A stretch of DNA of 64,000 nt, from NCBI GenBank assembly GCA_946183145.1, contig CAMGZM010000001.1:248001-312000 (forward strand). Direction: 5' to 3'. Below, piece after piece: positions 11,115-19,306 of this stretch; positions within the stretch are counted from its first letter, which is position 1, and the number at the start of each line of letters is the position of its first letter. The translations under genes were made by a program, and so were the position numbers. This DNA comes from an uncultured Fretibacterium sp. GTDB taxonomy: Bacteria; Synergistota; Synergistia; Synergistales; Aminobacteriaceae. The notes under the pieces are model-generated. The model was not told where the DNA came from. It made no database searches and worked only from the letters and a program-made list of their open reading frames with translations.

Positions 11115-12044
11115 TTAATCCTGCGGGTGTAATTCTCCGTTCAGCATGTCAATATTAACCTTCAGCATGTTCATCATTACGGCCATGTTACGCATAATGT
11201 TTACGGAGTTTCCTGCGTTCATCTGTATGAAGTCTTCAAACTCTGAACGGCTTATCCTCAGCAGTAACATATCGCTGTAGGCTGTTACGGTGTAAATTTC
11301 CGGGCTGTCTGTGAGCAGGGAATATTCACCGAAAGTTTTTCCCTCGTTAAGGCTTCCCAGCAGATATTCTTCATCTGTTTCATGATTGATGCTGCAGATC
11401 GCGCGGCCTGAGATAATTTTGTACATTTCATCATTCTTTTCACCCTCGCGGAGTATGACTCTATTGGCAGGAACTTTCACGAAATTTGCACGGTGTACTC
11501 CGCCGGACTGCTTCATCTCGTTTGCTTTGAGACGTGCTATGTTCTCATCGGTCAGGAATTTTCCGAGCTTAATTGCACCGTTGATTTTTCTCAGAAACGG
11601 CGAATTTTTCAGGAAGTCGGCAGTTCCACAGGAAATAACAATCATCATTGAGCTGTAACGCAGTTCGCTGTCTATAATTTTCGCAAAGACATCAAGAAAC
11701 GCTGCATCATTGCGCGCAAGTATGTCGAAGTCATCAATCACGAGGATAATTTTTGCTCCCTTATATGTCCGGGCAATGTAGCTCAGAGCATTGTCCCAGA
11801 AAGTGAAGGGCGGGTGATTTTTGTCGTTGAAATACTGAAGCACTTTGCTTGAAAAATGGCTGAGGTTAGCCCGGCTGCTTGCATTCGAGGCGGTGAAGTA
11901 TATAGCTGACTTGTTCCGGCAGAACTCCTCAAGCAGTGTTGTTTTCCCTGTATTTTTAGCACCGCACACTAGCATCAGCTTGAAGCCGTCATCAGAATAT
12001 GCATTCTCAAGCTGCGTTAATTCCTTTTCGCGTCCAATAAACAT
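11115..12044 (-). CDS. AAA/P-loop ATPase fused to a cyclic-nucleotide-binding-like domain
   Basis: Residues 1-185 form a P-loop ATPase of the MoxR/archaeal-ATPase-like type that begins F-I-G-R-E-K-E-L. Walker A is GAKNTGKTT (about 29-37) and Walker B is ILVIDDFD (about 101). Residues 190-305 form a CRP-type beta-roll (N-R-V-I-L-R-E-G-E, then FGEYSLL). The phosphate-binding cassette Arg of the usual P-R-x-A-T is missing (here S-P-E-I-Y-T), so cAMP/cGMP binding is doubtful. There is no DNA-binding domain. It is the last gene of the partner-switching operon, 1 bp from the RsbW-like kinase gene, which makes it a candidate output of that switch. The pairing of domains is unusual; the function is unknown. 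Confidence 0.75.
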   Translation of the reverse strand: MFIGREKELTQLENAYSDDGFKLMLVCGAKNTGKTTLLEEFCRNKSAIYFTASNASSRANLSHFSSKVLQYFNDKNHPPFTFWDNALSYIARTYKGAKIILVIDDFDILARNDAAFLDVFAKIIDSELRYSSMMIVISCGTADFLKNSPFLRKINGAIKLGKFLTDENIARLKANEMKQSGGVHRANFVKVPANRVILREGEKNDEMYKIISGRAICSINHETDEEYLLGSLNEGKTFGEYSLLTDSPEIYTVTAYSDMLLLRISRSEFEDFIQMNAGNSVNIMRNMAVMMNMLKVNIDMLNGELHPQD

Positions 12045-12045
12045 T

Positions 12046-12444
12046 TCAGGCCGTTATCCCCTTCCGCATGGTGAACACGTTATGCCCGTCAATGTATTCA
12101 TAGCTCACGCTGTCCATTGTCTTTTTGACGATGAAGACTCCCAGTCCGCCTATGTCGCGTTCCTCAGCAGAAAGCGTAATGTCAGGGTCAGGCTTTTCGA
12201 GCGGGTTATATGGCCGTCCGCTGTCGGTGAATGTGATTTCGGCCATGTCATCGGATTTGCTGATTGTGATTGTAGCTTTCTCCGAGCCGGAATAATGCGC
12301 TATGTTCACAAAAATTTCTTCTGCCGCAACGTTGATTTGAGTCATGATTTTCATCGGGCATTCATGATCCTCAAGAAATGCGTCAATGAAATCAATCACT
12401 TCATCAAGTTTTGCTATGCTGGCTTCTATCGTAAGTTCCTTCAA
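12046..12444 (-). CDS. RsbW/SpoIIAB-like anti-sigma-type serine kinase (HATPase_c)
   Basis: A 132-residue GHKL ATPase. The N-box is AAEEIFVNIAHY, the G1 box is FTDSGRPYNP, and the G2 box is DIGGLGVFIVKK. Such proteins phosphorylate STAS antagonists or bind and hold a target protein. The start is TTG at 12444 with GAGGG upstream. It lies 3 bp after a SpoIIE phosphatase and directly before the AAA-cNBD gene. The STAS substrate is encoded at the start of the same operon. No sigma factor is adjacent, so the captured partner is unknown. Confidence 0.88.
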   Translation of the reverse strand: MKELTIEASIAKLDEVIDFIDAFLEDHECPMKIMTQINVAAEEIFVNIAHYSGSEKATITISKSDDMAEITFTDSGRPYNPLEKPDPDITLSAEERDIGGLGVFIVKKTMDSVSYEYIDGHNVFTMRKGITA

Positions 12445-12447
12445 TCG

Positions 12448-14058
12448 TTAATCCCTCTTTCCGTAAAATTTCAGCGCGAGCATTGTTATATCGTCAAACT
12501 GCGGTGCTTCTCCCGTAAAATCATCAACGGATTTCTTCAGAGCACGCAAAATTTCTTCCGCTGTCATTCCCTGCGTGTGATTGAGAGCGTCAAGCATTCT
12601 TTCTGTGCCGTAAAGCTCCTCGCTAATGTTCGTGGCTTCTGCTACTCCGTCGGTGTAAATGCAGAGATTATCCCCCGGATTCAGCGTAAATTCTGAGCCT
12701 CTGAATCTTATCCCCGGCATTGTCGCGACCGCTGGACTCTGTTTCGTCCTGAATAGTGTATAGCCCTCGCCCTTTCTGTAGATTGCGGGGTATTCATGGC
12801 CGGCATTCGAGGCGGTGATTTTTCCCGTCGAAAGCTCAAGAATACCTAGCCACACCGTAACAAACAAATCCGCATCATTTATTTCACACAAGCGGTTATT
12901 CACGTCAGCAAGAATTTCTGAAGGAGTCCCGCCCATTTGCGTGCGAGTCCTGATTAATGATTTCGAGATTGCCATGAACAAAGCCGCAGGAACTCCCTTC
13001 CCCGAAACATCAGCCATGACGAGCGCAATATGATCATCATCAACCGTAAAGAAGTCGTAAAAATCTCCGCCAACCTCCTTAGCGGGAGTCATTGTCGCAA
13101 AAATCTCAAATTCTTTTCTCGCAGGAAATTCACGAGGCAGCATGCTTAACTGAATCTGAGCGGCTATGCTTAATTCGGCCTTGATTTGTTCCTTCTCCTT
13201 TGTGATTTGGGTTATGTCGTCTATGTAGCTGAGTACCTGCGACTCCATTGCGTCAACAGTCCGAGCTAACTGGCCGATTTCATTCTGTGATTTAATTTCA
13301 TTTCCGAGAGGGGACTCAGGCTCTGTATGTTCGCCCGCGAATCTCATGGCTTCAGCCGCAATTTTCTTCAACGGCACAATCAGAACACGCCCAAAATACA
13401 CGCCGTAAACAGTAAGAATGAATACGAGAATGAGAGCCGCCGCAAACGCAACATGCCTCACGTAGGACTTGCGGTAAAAGTTAAGCCGCTCCATCTGTCT
13501 TTGAACGCATAATATCCAGTCTACAGCCTCAGAATTAGGAGTCTTTATGGGAATCATTACGGTGATGTGATGGCCTGTTTCACTGTCGCCCTTGTCGCGG
13601 AAAATTGTAGACATCTTTTTTCCGTTCTCGCAGATTTCGCGGTATTCCCGGCGGTATTCGTCATTTGTCGTTTTGCGAACGTAACCGCTTGGGTAACGTT
13701 CATAATTTGCGGAGCTGTTCATTATGCTTAGGAAAAACTTTATGTGATTGTAGTCGCTCTTATCCGGCCTTATCAGGTAAATGAATGTAGCGTCCTGCGT
13801 ATCGGCTAATCGTTCCCATTCGTCATTAAGCATTTTGAATCTCATCTGGAACTCAGCCCCGGCAATTCCCCCCGTCAAAAGCTCAGGGGGAATCATCGTT
13901 GCAGCAGTACGGGCTGTGTTATACGCGCAATCCTCGTACTGTGTCGCTACTGAGTGCGTGAACTGATTGTATCCTGTTATGCACACAAAGACCGCAAGAA
14001 GGGCGATAACGCATACGAATACGGCTACAATCTGTACGGCGATATTATTTCTCAGCAT
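12448..14058 (-). CDS. membrane SpoIIE/RsbU-type PP2C phosphatase with HAMP (short sensor)
   Basis: 536 residues: TM1 (about 8-28), an extracytoplasmic sensor of about 160 residues, TM2 (about 197-218), HAMP, a short coiled linker, then a SpoIIE PP2C domain (about 300-532). PP2C metal motifs are intact (ADVSGKGVPAALF, YTDGVAEA, DDITML). It should dephosphorylate a phospho-STAS protein when the sensor is engaged. The C-terminal 230 residues are highly similar to the neighbouring phosphatase, pointing to tandem duplication with a divergent sensor. It overlaps the upstream gene by 14 bp. Confidence 0.9.
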   Translation of the reverse strand: MLRNNIAVQIVAVFVCVIALLAVFVCITGYNQFTHSVATQYEDCAYNTARTAATMIPPELLTGGIAGAEFQMRFKMLNDEWERLADTQDATFIYLIRPDKSDYNHIKFFLSIMNSSANYERYPSGYVRKTTNDEYRREYREICENGKKMSTIFRDKGDSETGHHITVMIPIKTPNSEAVDWILCVQRQMERLNFYRKSYVRHVAFAAALILVFILTVYGVYFGRVLIVPLKKIAAEAMRFAGEHTEPESPLGNEIKSQNEIGQLARTVDAMESQVLSYIDDITQITKEKEQIKAELSIAAQIQLSMLPREFPARKEFEIFATMTPAKEVGGDFYDFFTVDDDHIALVMADVSGKGVPAALFMAISKSLIRTRTQMGGTPSEILADVNNRLCEINDADLFVTVWLGILELSTGKITASNAGHEYPAIYRKGEGYTLFRTKQSPAVATMPGIRFRGSEFTLNPGDNLCIYTDGVAEATNISEELYGTERMLDALNHTQGMTAEEILRALKKSVDDFTGEAPQFDDITMLALKFYGKRD

Positions 14059-16081
14059 TTTTCCCGTAATACTTCAGCGATAACATAGTGATGTCGTCAA
14101 ATTGCGGAGCTTCCCCGGTGAAATCGTCAACAGATTTCTTCATTGTCCGCAAAATTTCTTCTACCGTCATCCCGTCCGTGTGATTCAATGCGTCAATCAT
14201 TCGTTCAGTCCCGTAAAGCTCATCTTGTGAATTTGTTGCTTCTGCTACTCCGTCAGTGTACAGGTACAAATCATCGCCGGGGTTTAGCGTGAACTCTGAG
14301 GGCTTGAAGCGTAATCCCTCCATTGTTGCAACGGCGGGACTCTGCTTTGTCTTGAAGAGTGTGTAGCCTTCACCGGGGCGGTATATTGCGGGGTATTCAT
14401 GGCCTGCGTTTGACGCTGTAACATGGCCGGTTGAGATTTCGAGAATCCCAAGCCAGACGGTAACAAATAATTCTGCCTCGTTGCCCTCGCATAACTGGTT
14501 GTTCACGTCAGCAAGAACTTCGGAAGGAGTGCCGCCCATCTGAGCGCGGTTCTTGATGAGGGTTTTTGCTATCACCATGAATAACGCAGCGGGGACTCCT
14601 TTTCCTGAAACGTCAGCCATAACCATAGCTAAATGATCGTCATCAACAAGGAAGAAATCATAGAAATCACCGCCGACTTCTTTAGCCGGGTTCATTGTGG
14701 CGTAAATGTCAAACTCTTTGCGGTCAGGGAACGGCGGGAAAATTCTCGGAAGCATATCGGCTTGAATCTGAGTCGCAATGTTAAGCTCCGCACCGATTCT
14801 TTCTTTCTCTGCTGTTACTGCTGCGAGGTTCTTGACGTAATCTTTGAGGGACGCGGCCATGTCGTTAAAGGATTTCGCGAGGTCTCCGATTTCGTCATTC
14901 GTACGGATTTCGGCGCGGTAATCGAGATTTCCGCCGGAGATTTTCTTCACGTCATCTTCAAGCGCGGTTATCGGCTGTGTGAGTCTGTGCGAGAATTTTC
15001 GTGCGGCAATGACAGCAAGCGCAACGACTATCACGAACGCTGCGAGAAATGACAGGATAGTGAAAATGACTTGCTTGTTCACATCGCGTACAGGCGCAAG
15101 TATGACTCTCTGAGGGATTCTGACGCAGAATTTCCAGCCCGTTATTTCTATCGGCGTGTAAGCGTAATAGACTCCGCTGTCGGACAATGAGACTCCTGTT
15201 TTGCCCGACACAATTTCGTATGCTGTTAGTGATGACATGTCTTCAGGGTGATACGTGTACTGTTTCTTGCCGTCTGAAGGAGGCGTAATCAGATCCCCTT
15301 TCCTGTCAAAGAGAAAAGCATATGCGTCCTCATGGCCGAAATCAAGCTCAATGATTGCCCGGTACAAATCCGAAATCAGCATGTCCATCGCCACAACTCC
15401 CGCGAAATTCCCGGAAGCATCATAAAACGGAGCGGCGCAGGTTATCATCATCCCCATCTCAAAAGAGTCTGAATATACATCGGTGAAGATTACTCCGCCT
15501 TTCTCTTTCGCTTCTTTGTACCATGTTGAGTCAAAATAGTTGTAATAGCTTTCGGACTGGCCTTTTTCGGGAAGAGAGTTGAACGAATTTTTATCGTATG
15601 TAGCCATTAAGCCCGATTTTGTTCCGGCGTAAATTGTCGTGATAACATTTTCGTTTGCTCTGATGACGGGATCCCAAATCTGCCGGAGATTTCCCAGAAG
15701 CCGCGACTCACCTTTTAGGGGTTCAATGTCCGCGCTTGGAGCTAAGATTCTCTGCATGGCAAGTATTCCGCTGTTCTCACTTTTTGCGGGAAAAATCTCA
15801 TGAGGAACATAATAATCAGGACTGACATAAAGCCCGTGAATGAACTCCGCGAAATTCTGAACATACCCCGCGTAACGTCCGAGAATTGACTCCGCAAGGT
15901 CTGCTTTGTCGTCCGTAATGCTTCCGAGATTCTGCTCCATCTGGCGGATAAGGGCTGTTTCACTGTCATCCTTTATCTGACTCATTCCGAGAATGCCTAC
16001 AGCACCCATTACGATTAACGCTGTTACGGAAATATACAGAACAACAGCGCGCACTTTCTTTTTGATTGTTGACTTACGCAT
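14045..16081 (-). CDS. membrane SpoIIE/RsbU-type PP2C phosphatase with dCache-like sensor and HAMP
   Basis: 678 residues: TM1 (about 11-32), a large extracytoplasmic region (about 35-335) with Cache-like features (Y-Y-N-Y-F-D-S-T-W-Y, then A-G-V-V-A-M-D-M), TM2 (about 340-362), HAMP, and a SpoIIE phosphatase domain (about 435-672) with ADVSGKGVPAALF, YTDGVAEA and DDITML. Cache sensors typically bind small metabolites such as amino acids, so this is the probable nutrient/stress input of the operon. It is a paralogue of the next gene. Confidence 0.9.
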   Translation of the reverse strand: MRKSTIKKKVRAVVLYISVTALIVMGAVGILGMSQIKDDSETALIRQMEQNLGSITDDKADLAESILGRYAGYVQNFAEFIHGLYVSPDYYVPHEIFPAKSENSGILAMQRILAPSADIEPLKGESRLLGNLRQIWDPVIRANENVITTIYAGTKSGLMATYDKNSFNSLPEKGQSESYYNYFDSTWYKEAKEKGGVIFTDVYSDSFEMGMMITCAAPFYDASGNFAGVVAMDMLISDLYRAIIELDFGHEDAYAFLFDRKGDLITPPSDGKKQYTYHPEDMSSLTAYEIVSGKTGVSLSDSGVYYAYTPIEITGWKFCVRIPQRVILAPVRDVNKQVIFTILSFLAAFVIVVALAVIAARKFSHRLTQPITALEDDVKKISGGNLDYRAEIRTNDEIGDLAKSFNDMAASLKDYVKNLAAVTAEKERIGAELNIATQIQADMLPRIFPPFPDRKEFDIYATMNPAKEVGGDFYDFFLVDDDHLAMVMADVSGKGVPAALFMVIAKTLIKNRAQMGGTPSEVLADVNNQLCEGNEAELFVTVWLGILEISTGHVTASNAGHEYPAIYRPGEGYTLFKTKQSPAVATMEGLRFKPSEFTLNPGDDLYLYTDGVAEATNSQDELYGTERMIDALNHTDGMTVEEILRTMKKSVDDFTGEAPQFDDITMLSLKYYGKNAEK

Positions 16082-16092
16082 GATAAATCCTC

Positions 16093-16974
16093 CTACACTA
16101 CTGCATGTACAGTATTTTCCCCTCCGCTGTAGCTGAATGAAGCGCGTATTGCACGGTGCTTTATGATTTTGAGGCTCATTATGTCGATTTCGTCCTCGTC
16201 TTTGCTGATGTGGAAGGGGTTATATTTTTCCCCACTGTAATGGAGTCTCGCTGATATTGCGTCCCCGAATATTACAGAGACAGAAATTCTTGCGTCAGGC
16301 TGTGCGTTTTGGATTCGTATTGCAAGCTCTTCAATGCAGCTCTGAATCTCAAGCACCCGCTTTATGTTCACGCCGCGTTTCATTGCTGACATTTCAAGAA
16401 TCTCGTTCGCTCCCTCAAGTGATTCGGCACTCGGCAAAAGGCAAAATTCAGCGTCATACGTCAAAAATTTTCCGTGAGGCATCACCGGCTCAATATAGAG
16501 AAGTGATGAGAACAGAATATTTACAGGTACTCCGATAAAAAGCCCCGTGAGAAAATATGCGAGTCCTGCCTGAACACTGACGGCGAGTCCTGAAGGTGAG
16601 TATATGACCCCTGAAAAGAGGCTCAGAATCACAAGCAGCAGAATATAGCGCGAATAATCCGGCCATGTCTTGAAGGAGATTCGCCCGGACTTTTTGAGGA
16701 AATGCCAGCCGTAAAACATTCCGAGTCCCGTTACGATTACGCAGGAACATTCACGAATCACATCAGAGGCTGACGGGTTAGCGAAAAATGCTGAGGCTAT
16801 GCAACCGATTACACAGCCCGAAACACCGTAAGCACCAAAGAACAGCCCTAACGTGAACGGCAGAAAGTTTTTGATTCCCGCGAATGAAGGAAGTACGTTT
16901 GTCATCTGAACAGGAGCGTCAATCACGAAATATGCGAGCGAGCAAAGAAATATCAGCTTCAATTTTTCCCGCAA
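16093..16974 (-). CDS. polytopic membrane protein with degenerate HATPase-like C-terminus
   Basis: 293 residues. The first 170 hold about six hydrophobic segments. The C-terminal 110 align by eye with GHKL kinases of signalling operons: an N-box-like I-Q-S-C-I-E-E-L-A, a G1-like Y-S-G-E-K-Y-N-P lacking the usual Asp, and no glycine-rich G2 (M-S-L-K-I-I-K instead of G-x-G-x-x-L-V-K). It is therefore probably a pseudokinase that binds a STAS or phosphatase partner without phosphorylating it. The TTG start at 16974 is supported by AAGGAGG. It overlaps the transporter gene by 16 bp. Confidence 0.65.
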   Translation of the reverse strand: MREKLKLIFLCSLAYFVIDAPVQMTNVLPSFAGIKNFLPFTLGLFFGAYGVSGCVIGCIASAFFANPSASDVIRECSCVIVTGLGMFYGWHFLKKSGRISFKTWPDYSRYILLLVILSLFSGVIYSPSGLAVSVQAGLAYFLTGLFIGVPVNILFSSLLYIEPVMPHGKFLTYDAEFCLLPSAESLEGANEILEMSAMKRGVNIKRVLEIQSCIEELAIRIQNAQPDARISVSVIFGDAISARLHYSGEKYNPFHISKDEDEIDIMSLKIIKHRAIRASFSYSGGENTVHAVV

Positions 16975-17879
16975 CGCAATAACCTCCTTAACGCACCGAA
17001 AAATTTCGGCTCAGTCATCAATATGCCGAGAACAATAGCAACGCCCCCGATGATTTTCGGCACTGTGATAACTTCCGGCGGAGTTCCGAGAAATTCCGAC
17101 AATATCGGAGAAACAGCCATTGTCATAATAATCTCCGTTGAGAATATCAATGACGTGTTCAGCGGTGAAATGTATCTTTGCGCGTATACCTGAATGATTC
17201 CGTAAAGCCCCCGTATGAAGAAGCTGATGTAAAACACGCTGCCCCAAAACTCCGGGTTTACAGGAAGCGTGAAAGGTACTCCCCTCAAAATCACTTCAGC
17301 AATCCACAATACGAGGCTGAAGACAAAGCAGAAAAACATCTGCCCCATTGCGATAATTGACGGGTTAGAGGATGAAGAGTATTTGCCGACGCTCACAACG
17401 TAGAAAGCAAACGCGATATTAGAGGCTATGATATAAGTTATGCTAATGTTAAGGAAGTCTGAAATTCTAGCCTCGCTCATAAGCATAAGCCCTACGAACA
17501 CCGCGAATACTCCGAAAAATGTCCCTTTGTCTGGAATCTGTTTGTAATCAAAGAACATTATCACCGCAATGAAAATGAAATTCGTTGACAGTACTGCGTT
17601 TGTCAGTGAAGCACCGAGTCCCGATACGCCCATAAGCAGGAAAAGATTGAAGGCTATCAACTGCGCTGAAAGTATCATGCTGTTCTTAACCTGTTTAGCG
17701 TCAAGACGGAACAATTCACCGAAAAAGAAAGCCAGCGACATTATGAATCCGATAAGATTCGTGATGCACAAAAACGCAAAATGAGGAACGGAATCAGGAA
17801 TCCATATCAGAAATACATACTGCACTGACGCAAAAAACGTTATGAAAAATAATGAGATATTAGCTTCAAGCCTGTTCAT
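16959..17879 (-). CDS. DMT/EamA-like transporter, ten TM
   Basis: A 306-residue integral membrane protein with about ten hydrophobic segments in two similar halves, the drug/metabolite transporter layout. The second half contains the EamA-like S-P-L-N-T-S-L-I-F-S-T-E-I segment. The substrate cannot be told. It overlaps the DUF2156 gene upstream by 14 bp and the pseudokinase gene downstream by 16 bp, so it belongs to the signalling operon and may work with the DUF2156 protein. Confidence 0.75.
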   Translation of the reverse strand: MNRLEANISLFFITFFASVQYVFLIWIPDSVPHFAFLCITNLIGFIMSLAFFFGELFRLDAKQVKNSMILSAQLIAFNLFLLMGVSGLGASLTNAVLSTNFIFIAVIMFFDYKQIPDKGTFFGVFAVFVGLMLMSEARISDFLNISITYIIASNIAFAFYVVSVGKYSSSSNPSIIAMGQMFFCFVFSLVLWIAEVILRGVPFTLPVNPEFWGSVFYISFFIRGLYGIIQVYAQRYISPLNTSLIFSTEIIMTMAVSPILSEFLGTPPEVITVPKIIGGVAIVLGILMTEPKFFGALRRLLRCGKN

Positions 17880-18804
17880 TTTCTGTTACGATAAATTTAT
17901 CAATCATATATTCGGGCTGGTCTCTAGTTTTGACCGTCCTTAATCCCTCGTCGCCGAGATCTTCCTCAAAGTTGAAGTACGTGTACTTATCGCGGCATAT
18001 TCTCAGAAATTCGTGCTTTACGGCTGTATAAACATCGAGCATGTTGCGGTCAGCTTTTTCCGCGTCGCCTTCAACAACATCATCATTCAGCGGGAAACCG
18101 TAAGCATACCCGGAAATTTTCCCGTCAATGAACATTATGATACCGAACATTCCGAGCATGAAGAAATCATCAAGCGCACGCTGTATACATTCGTTGTCTG
18201 ATTTAAGCTGCTGAACATGCCATGAGTCATCAATTCCGGCGATTCTTTCTGCAAGCCATTTATTTTGGTAGTCGCGAATCATCTCTATATGCTCAGGGGT
18301 AATCATCACAGACTCCCAGCGTCCTTCATACCTCCGCTGAAATTTGTGGAGACTCCTGCGCTTTACTTCCTGTTTTCCTCCTGCGAGGCTGAAGAGATGC
18401 TCAATGTTGTAGACATACTCCGAGTAATCGCGGTTGAAGTTTACGGTGAATCTTCCGGGGAAAAGTTTTGTGATTATGTCCTTTGCTGACTCTGTTACGG
18501 TCTGGAATTTTGCCCGTGCGTTATGGCTGTGAGCATCATCAATAACATTCTGTATAACGTTCCTCATTGCGTCATTGCTTTCACGCGGGCCGTAAGGGAA
18601 AAGATATATCCTCTCATTTTCCGTGCAGAGTTTAGTGCGCAGAGTGTAGAGATACCCTTCATGCTCGCAAAATTCATCGCCGTATTTATGACGCAGAGTC
18701 CATGACGACACAAAAGAATGCTGGCAAGACCCCTCGCCGTATTTGAACGTGTAAGAATCCGCCAGCACCTTAACGCCGGGTGTTATCGGCTGAAAGTTTA
18801 GCAT
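17866..18804 (-). CDS. DUF2156 / phosphatidylglycerol lysyltransferase C-terminal-like protein
   Basis: A 312-residue soluble protein of the GNAT-fold DUF2156 family, related to the synthase domain of MprF but without the flippase membrane part. Visible features are the N-terminal F-Q-P-I-T-P start with a following W-x-L-R-H segment, a central R-S-L-H-K-F-Q-R-R-Y stretch, and the acceptor-like FIDGKISGYAYGFPL beta strand typical of the acyltransferase core. Family members may transfer aminoacyl or acyl groups; the substrate is unknown. It lies 5 bp after the STAS gene and overlaps the transporter gene. Confidence 0.75.
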   Translation of the reverse strand: MLNFQPITPGVKVLADSYTFKYGEGSCQHSFVSSWTLRHKYGDEFCEHEGYLYTLRTKLCTENERIYLFPYGPRESNDAMRNVIQNVIDDAHSHNARAKFQTVTESAKDIITKLFPGRFTVNFNRDYSEYVYNIEHLFSLAGGKQEVKRRSLHKFQRRYEGRWESVMITPEHIEMIRDYQNKWLAERIAGIDDSWHVQQLKSDNECIQRALDDFFMLGMFGIIMFIDGKISGYAYGFPLNDDVVEGDAEKADRNMLDVYTAVKHEFLRICRDKYTYFNFEEDLGDEGLRTVKTRDQPEYMIDKFIVTENEQA

Positions 18805-18809
18805 TGATG

Positions 18810-19115
18810 TTACTTCTTGATGTTCAGGATTTCATCAAAGCCCGTTACTTCAAAGATTTCGAGAATTTCCTGCCCTGCGTTTACGATCGTCATTGTTCCC
18901 TGCTGGTTCATTGTCTTCTGAGCCTTGAGGAGCACGCGCAATCCCGCCGATGAAACGTACGCAAGCTCGGCCATGTCGATTGTGAGATCCTTTACGCCAG
19001 CAAGCCCGCCTGTAATTTCGGCCTCAAGCTGGGGAGCTGTGGTTGTGTCGAGTCTTCCGCTTACCTTGAGCGTGAGGGAGTCGCCTGATGCTGTCTTTTC
19101 GATTGTTAATGCCAT
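18810..19115 (-). CDS. STAS-domain anti-sigma-factor antagonist (SpoIIAA/RsbV-like)
   Basis: A 101-residue single STAS domain: GRLDTTTAPQLE near residue 20, then YVSSAGLRVLL (about 52-62) carrying the phosphorylatable Ser, and ILEIFEVTGFDEIL at the C-terminus. It should be phosphorylated by the RsbW-like kinase and dephosphorylated by the SpoIIE phosphatases downstream. First gene of the eight-gene minus-strand operon. ATG is preceded by AGGAGG and an 11-base A/T spacer. Confidence 0.93.
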   Translation of the reverse strand: MALTIEKTASGDSLTLKVSGRLDTTTAPQLEAEITGGLAGVKDLTIDMAELAYVSSAGLRVLLKAQKTMNQQGTMTIVNAGQEILEIFEVTGFDEILNIKK

Positions 19116-19158: not shown

Positions 19159-19187
19159 AAGTTACCATTTTTTTATCATCATGTCAA
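19159..19187 (-). promoter_or_regulatory. promoter of the partner-switching operon
   Basis: On the minus strand a perfect TTGACA (19187-19182) is followed by a 17-bp spacer ending TGG and a weak -10 TAACTT (19164-19159), i.e. an extended -10 arrangement, 44 bp upstream of the STAS ATG. Confidence 0.65.
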
Positions 19188-19204: not shown

Positions 19205-19306
19205 TGAGAATTTTGCGGCCAATTGTGAATCGAATGCGTGAAAATTTTTATGCCAATCGCGAATCGTGTGTGTGAAAATTTTGCTGCCAATCATCATTAA
19301 AGATAC
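19205..19306. repeat. three 34-bp imperfect direct repeats with GCCAAT cores
   Basis: In the 344-bp gap between the divergent STAS operon and the aconitase-like gene, GCCAAT occurs at 19218, 19252 and 19286, exactly 34 bp apart. Each is preceded by TGA(A/G)AATTTT. The first two are followed by a GAATCG block. No gene is seen in the gap. The units sit between the STAS promoter and a TATAAT box at 19333-19338 facing the aconitase-like gene, as expected for operator or activator sites. Confidence 0.75.

Follow-up and report, generated by a model that had tools for sequence, protein, structure and literature searches.

The window analysed here, a stretch of 64,000 nucleotides from an uncultured Fretibacterium sp. 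(contig CAMGZM010000001.1, positions 248,001 to 312,000), contains an eight-gene operon that combines the parts of a partner switch, namely a STAS antagonist, an RsbW-like serine kinase and two SpoIIE phosphatases, with an EamA transporter and a membrane protein carrying a degenerate copy of the kinase domain. Partner switching is known from textbooks as a means of controlling sigma factors, although a few enzymes are also among its targets. Our favoured reading, to which we give a probability of roughly 0.57, is that this partner-switching module has the membrane transporter as its output, gated after translation via the docked pseudo-RsbW domain. An earlier note on this DNA, made from the sequence alone, had proposed as likeliest outputs either an ATPase with AAA and cyclic-nucleotide-binding domains (AAA-cNBD) or a DUF2156 transferase plus the transporter. 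Among these, transport is the best fit: relatives have the degenerate kinase domain fused to EamA, and elsewhere such domains are joined to other transporters.

Composition of the operon

Eight open reading frames (ORFs), all on the minus strand, span positions 19115 to 11115 of the window. From the 5' end of the operon, with lengths in amino acids (aa), they are:

18810 to 19115, minus strand: STAS-domain antagonist (RsbV/SpoIIAA-like), 101 aa (PF01740, E 1.9e-17; TIGR00377 above cut-off)
17866 to 18804, minus strand: DUF2156 / LPG_synthase_C protein, a GNAT-like transferase, 312 aa (PF09924, E 4.9e-30)
16959 to 17879, minus strand: EamA (DMT superfamily) transporter with hydrophobic segments, 306 aa (PF00892, E 1.1e-15)
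16093 to 16974, minus strand: membrane pseudokinase (PK), 293 aa, TTG start (profile-profile match to RsbW)
14045 to 16081, minus strand: dCache-HAMP-SpoIIE (PPM) sensor phosphatase, 678 aa (PF02743, PF00672 and PF07228; SpoIIE E 2.6e-46)
12448 to 14058, minus strand: HAMP-SpoIIE sensor phosphatase with two hydrophobic segments, 536 aa (PF07228, E 4.2e-47)
12046 to 12444, minus strand: RsbW-like serine kinase, 132 aa, TTG start (PF13581, HATPase_c_2, E 1e-20)
11115 to 12044, minus strand: AAA (ATPase_2/AAA_16) and cNMP_binding protein, 309 aa, an optional last gene (cNMP_binding E 6.7e-17)

The successive intergenic gaps, from the STAS gene onward, are 5, -14, -16, 11, -14, 3 and 1 bp. The single-strand operon of eight genes separated by overlaps or gaps of at most 11 bp, as described in the earlier note, therefore stands (gaps of -16 to +11 bp). 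Pfam returned the domain make-up given there for the eight proteins, with no confident match for the 293-aa membrane protein.

The switch components keep their catalytic residues. In the RsbW-like kinase, N47, D74, G76 and GGLG are invariant across 10 of 10 aligned sequences and the N, G1 and G2 boxes are intact; its profile matches the RsbW structure 6m36 in the PDB (E 4.8e-11). The STAS protein has the motif VSSAGL from residue 54, in which we take Ser56 to be the phosphosite by analogy with SpoIIAA and RsbV. Catalytic motifs are intact in both phosphatases, the PPM metal-binding motifs included (GGDFYD, DVSGKG, TDGV and DDIT in the dCache-HAMP-SpoIIE protein), and the catalytic domain of the HAMP-SpoIIE protein is identical to that of its neighbour at 190 of 245 positions. 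Judged by these motifs, the module is a partner switch of the RsbU/RsbV/RsbW type. No sigma factor was found among the eight proteins with Pfam, as had been claimed, and the operon lacks the linked SigB/F/G sigma factor that marks SigB/SigF-type systems. The effector is probably non-transcriptional, in agreement with the earlier proposal.

Conservation in Synergistota and fusion of the pseudokinase to EamA

A search with the pseudokinase found matches at E <= 0.001 in 36 of the 185 Synergistota genomes, confined to 2 of 62 genera. The gene scored above 90 bits in 29 of the 185, the host genome included, and the other seven matching genomes gave weak matches to the C-terminal domain only. We examined at length 24 of the 28 other pseudokinase loci (L117-L140). 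The operon core is kept, with variation, in all 24: EamA and SpoIIE are present in 24, DUF2156 in 23 (absent from L129), STAS and RsbW in 22 each, and AAA-cNBD in 7, and the N-terminal part of the pseudokinase is found in 23, being shortened in L140. The earlier note had made its proposal depend on linkage conserved outside this genome, and such linkage is what these loci display. SpoIIE and RsbW form one protein in 13 of the loci. When the complete operon is compared with that of L003 (the same locus as L118), the DUF2156 protein diverges fastest, at 52% identity against 62-82% for the other seven.

The pseudokinase consists of a hydrophobic N-terminal part (residues ~1-160) and a degenerate RsbW-like HATPase domain (~170-293). 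Over 124 residues this C-terminal domain aligns to RsbW with an hhalign probability of 95.8%, so that the label of membrane pseudokinase already attached to the protein proved apt, and to the ABC-fused domain described below with a probability of 97.9%. Its homology to RsbW rests on profile-profile comparison because the domain is beyond the reach of Pfam, which found PF13581 in just one of 23 members (E 0.073). The ATP-binding residues are lost in 27 of 27 copies, the N-box Asn being replaced by Arg and the G1 Asp lost. Among RsbW-type domains, 52 of 52 keep N, D, G and GGxG, in a set (identical sequences counted once) that was chosen by an RsbW profile and so favours intact motifs. Since conservation of the pseudokinase C-terminal domain stays strong despite the lost ATP-binding residues (mean column identity 69%, 21 sequences), it appears to be kept for a non-catalytic role.

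In 10 of the 24 loci, the shortened L140 among them, EamA and the pseudokinase are fused in a single ORF of ~600 aa. In the non-fused loci the two genes adjoin each other, with two genes inserted between them in one case (L120). These extra genes lie at L120:11569-13799, and one of them resembles a DNA methyltransferase by eye. Fused forms occur in more than one clade of the pseudokinase tree, which is midpoint-rooted and displays no support values.

RsbW-like domains on other transporters

The operon of several relatives extends into an amino-acid ABC module, with genes for SBP_bac_3 proteins, for a permease and for an ABC ATPase. The ABC ATPase of these modules ends in a degenerate RsbW-like domain of ~125 C-terminal residues, which aligns to RsbW with an hhalign probability of 97.6% and has lost the ATP site as the pseudokinase has. 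A profile of this domain matched 51 of the 185 Synergistota genomes, spread over 8 of 62 genera, a count that includes pseudokinase and RsbW matches. Two such ABC ATPase::HATPase proteins are encoded in the host genome beyond the window, one at C1:189 kb (operon L159), the other at C1:57 kb (L160). Adjoining the second is a 1787-aa ORF (L160:1569-6929; host C1, ~51.6-57 kb) that reads as several solute-binding units in a row followed by a permease.

Beyond Synergistota, the ABC-domain profile matched 13 of 247 Spirochaetota genomes, five of which have ABC::HATPase genes. In Clostridia, 46 of 291 genomes match the broad profile, and in Gammaproteobacteria there are matches in 20 of 274 genomes, with 2 ABC fusions among 6 loci examined. 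A cultured example is WP_014431153.1, encoded on plasmid pSRC1 of Selenomonas ruminantium TAM6421 and annotated merely as an ABC ATP-binding protein. Its RsbW-like domain spans residues 240-370 (E 2.6e-33); ~7 kb upstream lies a STAS gene.

RsbW-like domains are also found on MATE transporters in Synergistota and Clostridia. MatE and PF13581 both score above cut-off in L164, L172, L222 and L226, and the MATE version occurs as well in the genome holding the Pseudobutyrivibrio sp. ACV-2 contig (L041). The gene order in L164 is STAS-RsbW-MATE::HATPase, and none of 41 plasmid records with a match covers 80% of its fusion gene. In L119, from the genus of the host, a MATE::HATPase gene lies directly 5' of the operon's STAS gene, with PF13581 below cut-off. 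The ATP-binding N is kept in 21 of 31 MATE-fused domains and the D in 26 of 31, and some of these domains may be active kinases on their own transporters. Dicarboxylate transporters of the SDF family make up a further set, with HATPase::SDF proteins in L218, L250 and L258.

Two kinds of accompanying gene were seen at these loci. A companion protein of 190-230 aa with the motif ELEKSIIANIADDV (L159:1305-1928, L128:14751-15362, L232:2411-2992 and L206:731-1411) travels with the switches, upstream of STAS and the ABC block, and had no Pfam match where scanned. A reading of it as another degenerate kinase is rejected, since its hhalign probability is only 27.6% against RsbW and 11.0% against the ABC domain. 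Gene pairs that look like GNAT acetyltransferases by eye (L222:7038-8179 and L221:15837-17047) stand between MATE::HATPase-SpoIIE and RsbW, a position that recalls that of DUF2156 in the window operon.

Linkage of fused transporters to switch genes

We counted fused transporter ORFs with a same-strand STAS, SpoIIE or RsbW gene no more than 8 kb away. The loci were chosen from profile matches, many of them ending at contig ends, with identical sequences counted once; those from Clostridia represent most matches with ORFs of 330-700 aa. Such a switch gene accompanies 46 of 89 fused ORFs: all 10 EamA::PK fusions, MATE fusions in Clostridia (16/24), Synergistota (2/7) and Spirochaetota (1/1), ABC fusions in Clostridia (4/12), Synergistota (10/26) and Spirochaetota (2/5; 16/43 in total), and SDF fusions in Clostridia (1/3) and Synergistota (0/1).

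As a control, fused and unfused MATE genes were compared within 14 Clostridia genomes that had been chosen for holding fused MATE genes, the unfused set being the top-scoring matches. Among the matches listed, 8 of the 19 fused genes but 0 of the 104 unfused ones have SpoIIE within 3 kb (P 7e-8); at a distance of up to 10 kb the counts are 12 of 19 against 4 of 104 (P 5e-9). Some operons bring several of these elements together: L227, from Spirochaetota, contains ABC::HATPase, STAS::APH, MATE::HATPase, SpoIIE and RsbW, and L218, from Clostridia, contains STAS, SpoIIE::RsbW, HATPase::SDF and perm-ABC::HATPase.

Proposed mechanism

The mechanism that we propose starts from what is visible in the sequence, namely the order of the genes, a kinase and phosphatases with intact motifs, a degenerate domain, transporter fusions and non-random linkage. 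On detecting a signal, the dCache and HAMP modules would turn on the SpoIIE phosphatases, and these would dephosphorylate the STAS protein. Free STAS would bind the ATP-less RsbW-like domain on the EamA transporter and so switch transport; this docking domain would be the pseudokinase, a separate chain in the window and a single chain with EamA in relatives. The intact RsbW kinase would re-phosphorylate STAS with ATP, resetting the system. RsbW-family proteins bind STAS proteins, as in the SpoIIAA-SpoIIAB pair, so a kinase-like domain that no longer binds ATP but retains the sequence pattern of the family would be a natural STAS receptor, and on EamA or an ABC ATPase it would allow STAS to gate transport. 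In the host, the two ABC ATPase::HATPase proteins may be further targets of the same switch, reached in trans. The SBP_bac_3, GlnQ-like and SDF families suggest that the substrate is most likely amino acids or related anions.

We extend this proposal more tentatively, at a little short of even odds, to a broader theme: that at least four transporter families unrelated to one another (DMT/EamA, amino-acid ABC ATPases, MATE and SDF) have acquired an RsbW-like domain, in many cases ATP-dead, across Synergistota, Clostridia, Spirochaetota, Negativicutes and, rarely, Gammaproteobacteria, letting one SpoIIE/RsbW/STAS phospho-switch control sets of importers and exporters post-translationally. We found no description of RsbW-like domains on transporters in the open-licence PMC literature, which omits most subscription papers and preprints, and the theme is apparently undescribed. 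If true, it would turn partner switching into a general means of controlling nutrient uptake and efflux after translation in anaerobes of the gut and rumen, and would account for partner-switch genes without a neighbouring sigma factor.

Several points weigh against transporter gating. No same-strand switch gene lies within 8 kb of 43 of the 89 fused transporters; some of these sit at contig ends, and the others would need control in trans. In the L130 locus, neither STAS nor RsbW was found on the examined stretch. The dead-kinase status is not general, as MATE-fused domains often keep ATP residues. The fold of the pseudokinase is assigned by profile comparison alone; an AlphaFold model built from two sequences reached a mean predicted local distance difference test score (pLDDT) of only 40. 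STAS docking, the direction of its effect, the ligand and the transported substrate are all inferred.

Alternative explanations

The best of the alternatives, in our view unlikely, is that the transporter is a sensor: its transport state would free or capture STAS or RsbW via the docked pseudo-kinase, and the true output would lie elsewhere. The fusions and the linkage fit either direction, and RsbW-type kinases form dimers, so a pseudo-RsbW could titrate RsbW. However, the operon already holds two membrane phosphatases with sensor regions of their own, and one module attached to unrelated importers and exporters is more readily understood as serving common outputs than common inputs.

A further alternative, taken from the earlier note, makes either the AAA-cNBD ATPase or else DUF2156, as a transferase, the effector, with envelope modification as the outcome; it is less likely still. 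Both genes belong to the operon and DUF2156 is kept in nearly every locus (23/24), but neither protein has an RsbW-like or STAS domain by Pfam, and DUF2156 is both the fastest-diverging member relative to L003 and the one absent from L129. AAA-cNBD is unlikely to be the core output: it occurs in only 7 of 24 loci, and L005 has three tandem copies (L005:7874-10912) with no partner-switch gene found on that contig stretch.

Classical anti-sigma control in trans, with RsbW holding a FliA/WhiG-type sigma factor that STAS releases, ranks slightly lower again, at long odds. RsbW keeps all kinase motifs, and a sigma factor of the FliA/WhiG family, which is related to SigB/SigF, is present in the 2.55-Mb host genome. 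Two Sigma70_r2 proteins were found in that genome, both outside the operon: a 423-aa ORF and the smaller FliA/WhiG-type protein, the sole alternative sigma-70 factor found. Against this explanation, the FliA/WhiG-type gene lies on another contig beside genes resembling cheA, cheB and cheC (named by eye), and the pseudokinase and the fusions would be left unexplained.

Simple co-expression, with the HATPase-like domains as structural leftovers that have no switching role, would accord with the lost ATP sites of the pseudokinase and ABC versions, but is very improbable given the strong conservation of the pseudokinase C-terminal domain, the several transporter families that carry such domains and a SpoIIE linkage far above the unfused control.

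Other switch genes in the host genome

The two SpoIIE domains of the host genome are both inside the operon, and its one stand-alone intact RsbW-like protein is the operon's own. A second RsbW-like gene (C19:16167-16538; L113, L178) is decayed, with two in-frame stops. There are four STAS matches: the operon STAS protein, a pair of STAS::APH proteins encoded in tandem, and a protein of 432 aa whose STAS domain is C-terminal. The tandem genes, which encode STAS::APH-like phosphotransferases, lie at L215:6365-8720 (C3, ~128-130 kb). STAS::APH is also found in loci of other genomes (L183, L186, L129 and L137), adjoining ABC::HATPase or RsbW genes, which suggests a second kind of STAS partner.

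Comparison with known systems

The RsbU/RsbV/RsbW (SigB) and SpoIIE/SpoIIAA/SpoIIAB systems have in common with the window operon a STAS antagonist, a HATPase_c_2 serine kinase and a PPM phosphatase, all with intact motifs. The window operon differs in having no sigma factor and in a second, degenerate kinase domain on a transporter.

In Pseudomonas aeruginosa, SiaC activates the diguanylate cyclase SiaD, a non-sigma effector (PMC8457831). SiaABCD resembles the module proposed here in that a sensor PPM phosphatase and a small switch protein control a non-transcriptional effector (PMC8457831), and the SiaA model does match the HAMP-SpoIIE protein, at a score far below its cut-off. The eight proteins of the operon include no GGDEF/diguanylate cyclase, however, the candidate effector being a transporter with an RsbW-like domain. 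In the MlaFB system, the STAS protein MlaB binds the ABC ATPase MlaF directly (PMC7367683), which parallels the post-translational action of a STAS protein on a transporter proposed here. In contrast, the ABC ATPases of the relatives carry an added RsbW-like C-terminal domain, with switch genes nearby in 16 of 43. Pfam found no MlaF, MlaE or MCE domains in the operon, and its STAS protein scores far below the MlaB cut-off. SulP/SLC26 transporters likewise have part of a partner switch built in, but there the STAS domain is fused (PMC8256260), whereas in the system described here the transporter bears the kinase-like partner instead, and STAS is a free-standing protein of 101 aa.

Upstream region and remaining features

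Two features were noted upstream of the STAS gene:

19159 to 19187, minus strand: candidate promoter TTGACA-17-TAACTT with a weak -10, read by eye and not picked by the promoter scan
19205 to 19306, minus strand: three 34-bp tandem direct repeats, possible regulator sites

The single promoter claimed for the operon is plausible, with this candidate 5' of the STAS gene, but unproven, as the scan is at chance level: promoter-like matches in the region fall below those in shuffles (10 found, 13.1 expected). The core of the 34-bp repeats is ATTGGCNNNAAAATTNTCA (minus strand), and the core pattern has 3 matches against 0.33 expected. A scan of 12 loci for this pattern gave only two stray single matches.

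The W-Y motif area of the dCache sensor reads D-S-T-W-Y in the window and is variable in relatives. We compared it with the canonical amino-acid dCache motif, which we take to be an Arg near W-Y, and assigned no ligand. No helix-turn-helix match was found with Pfam in the 309 aa of the AAA-cNBD protein, unlike in Crp-type cyclic-nucleotide regulators; its predicted structure is good for residues 1-165 only.

MprF is a lysyl-phosphatidylglycerol synthase/flippase, and the DUF2156 protein shares with it the LPG_synthase_C domain. The 312-aa protein differs in being the synthase domain only, with no MprF-type flippase, and EamA belongs to a different family. The DUF2156 protein has a GNAT-like fold, and a solved relative is 2hqy (E 1.6e-31).

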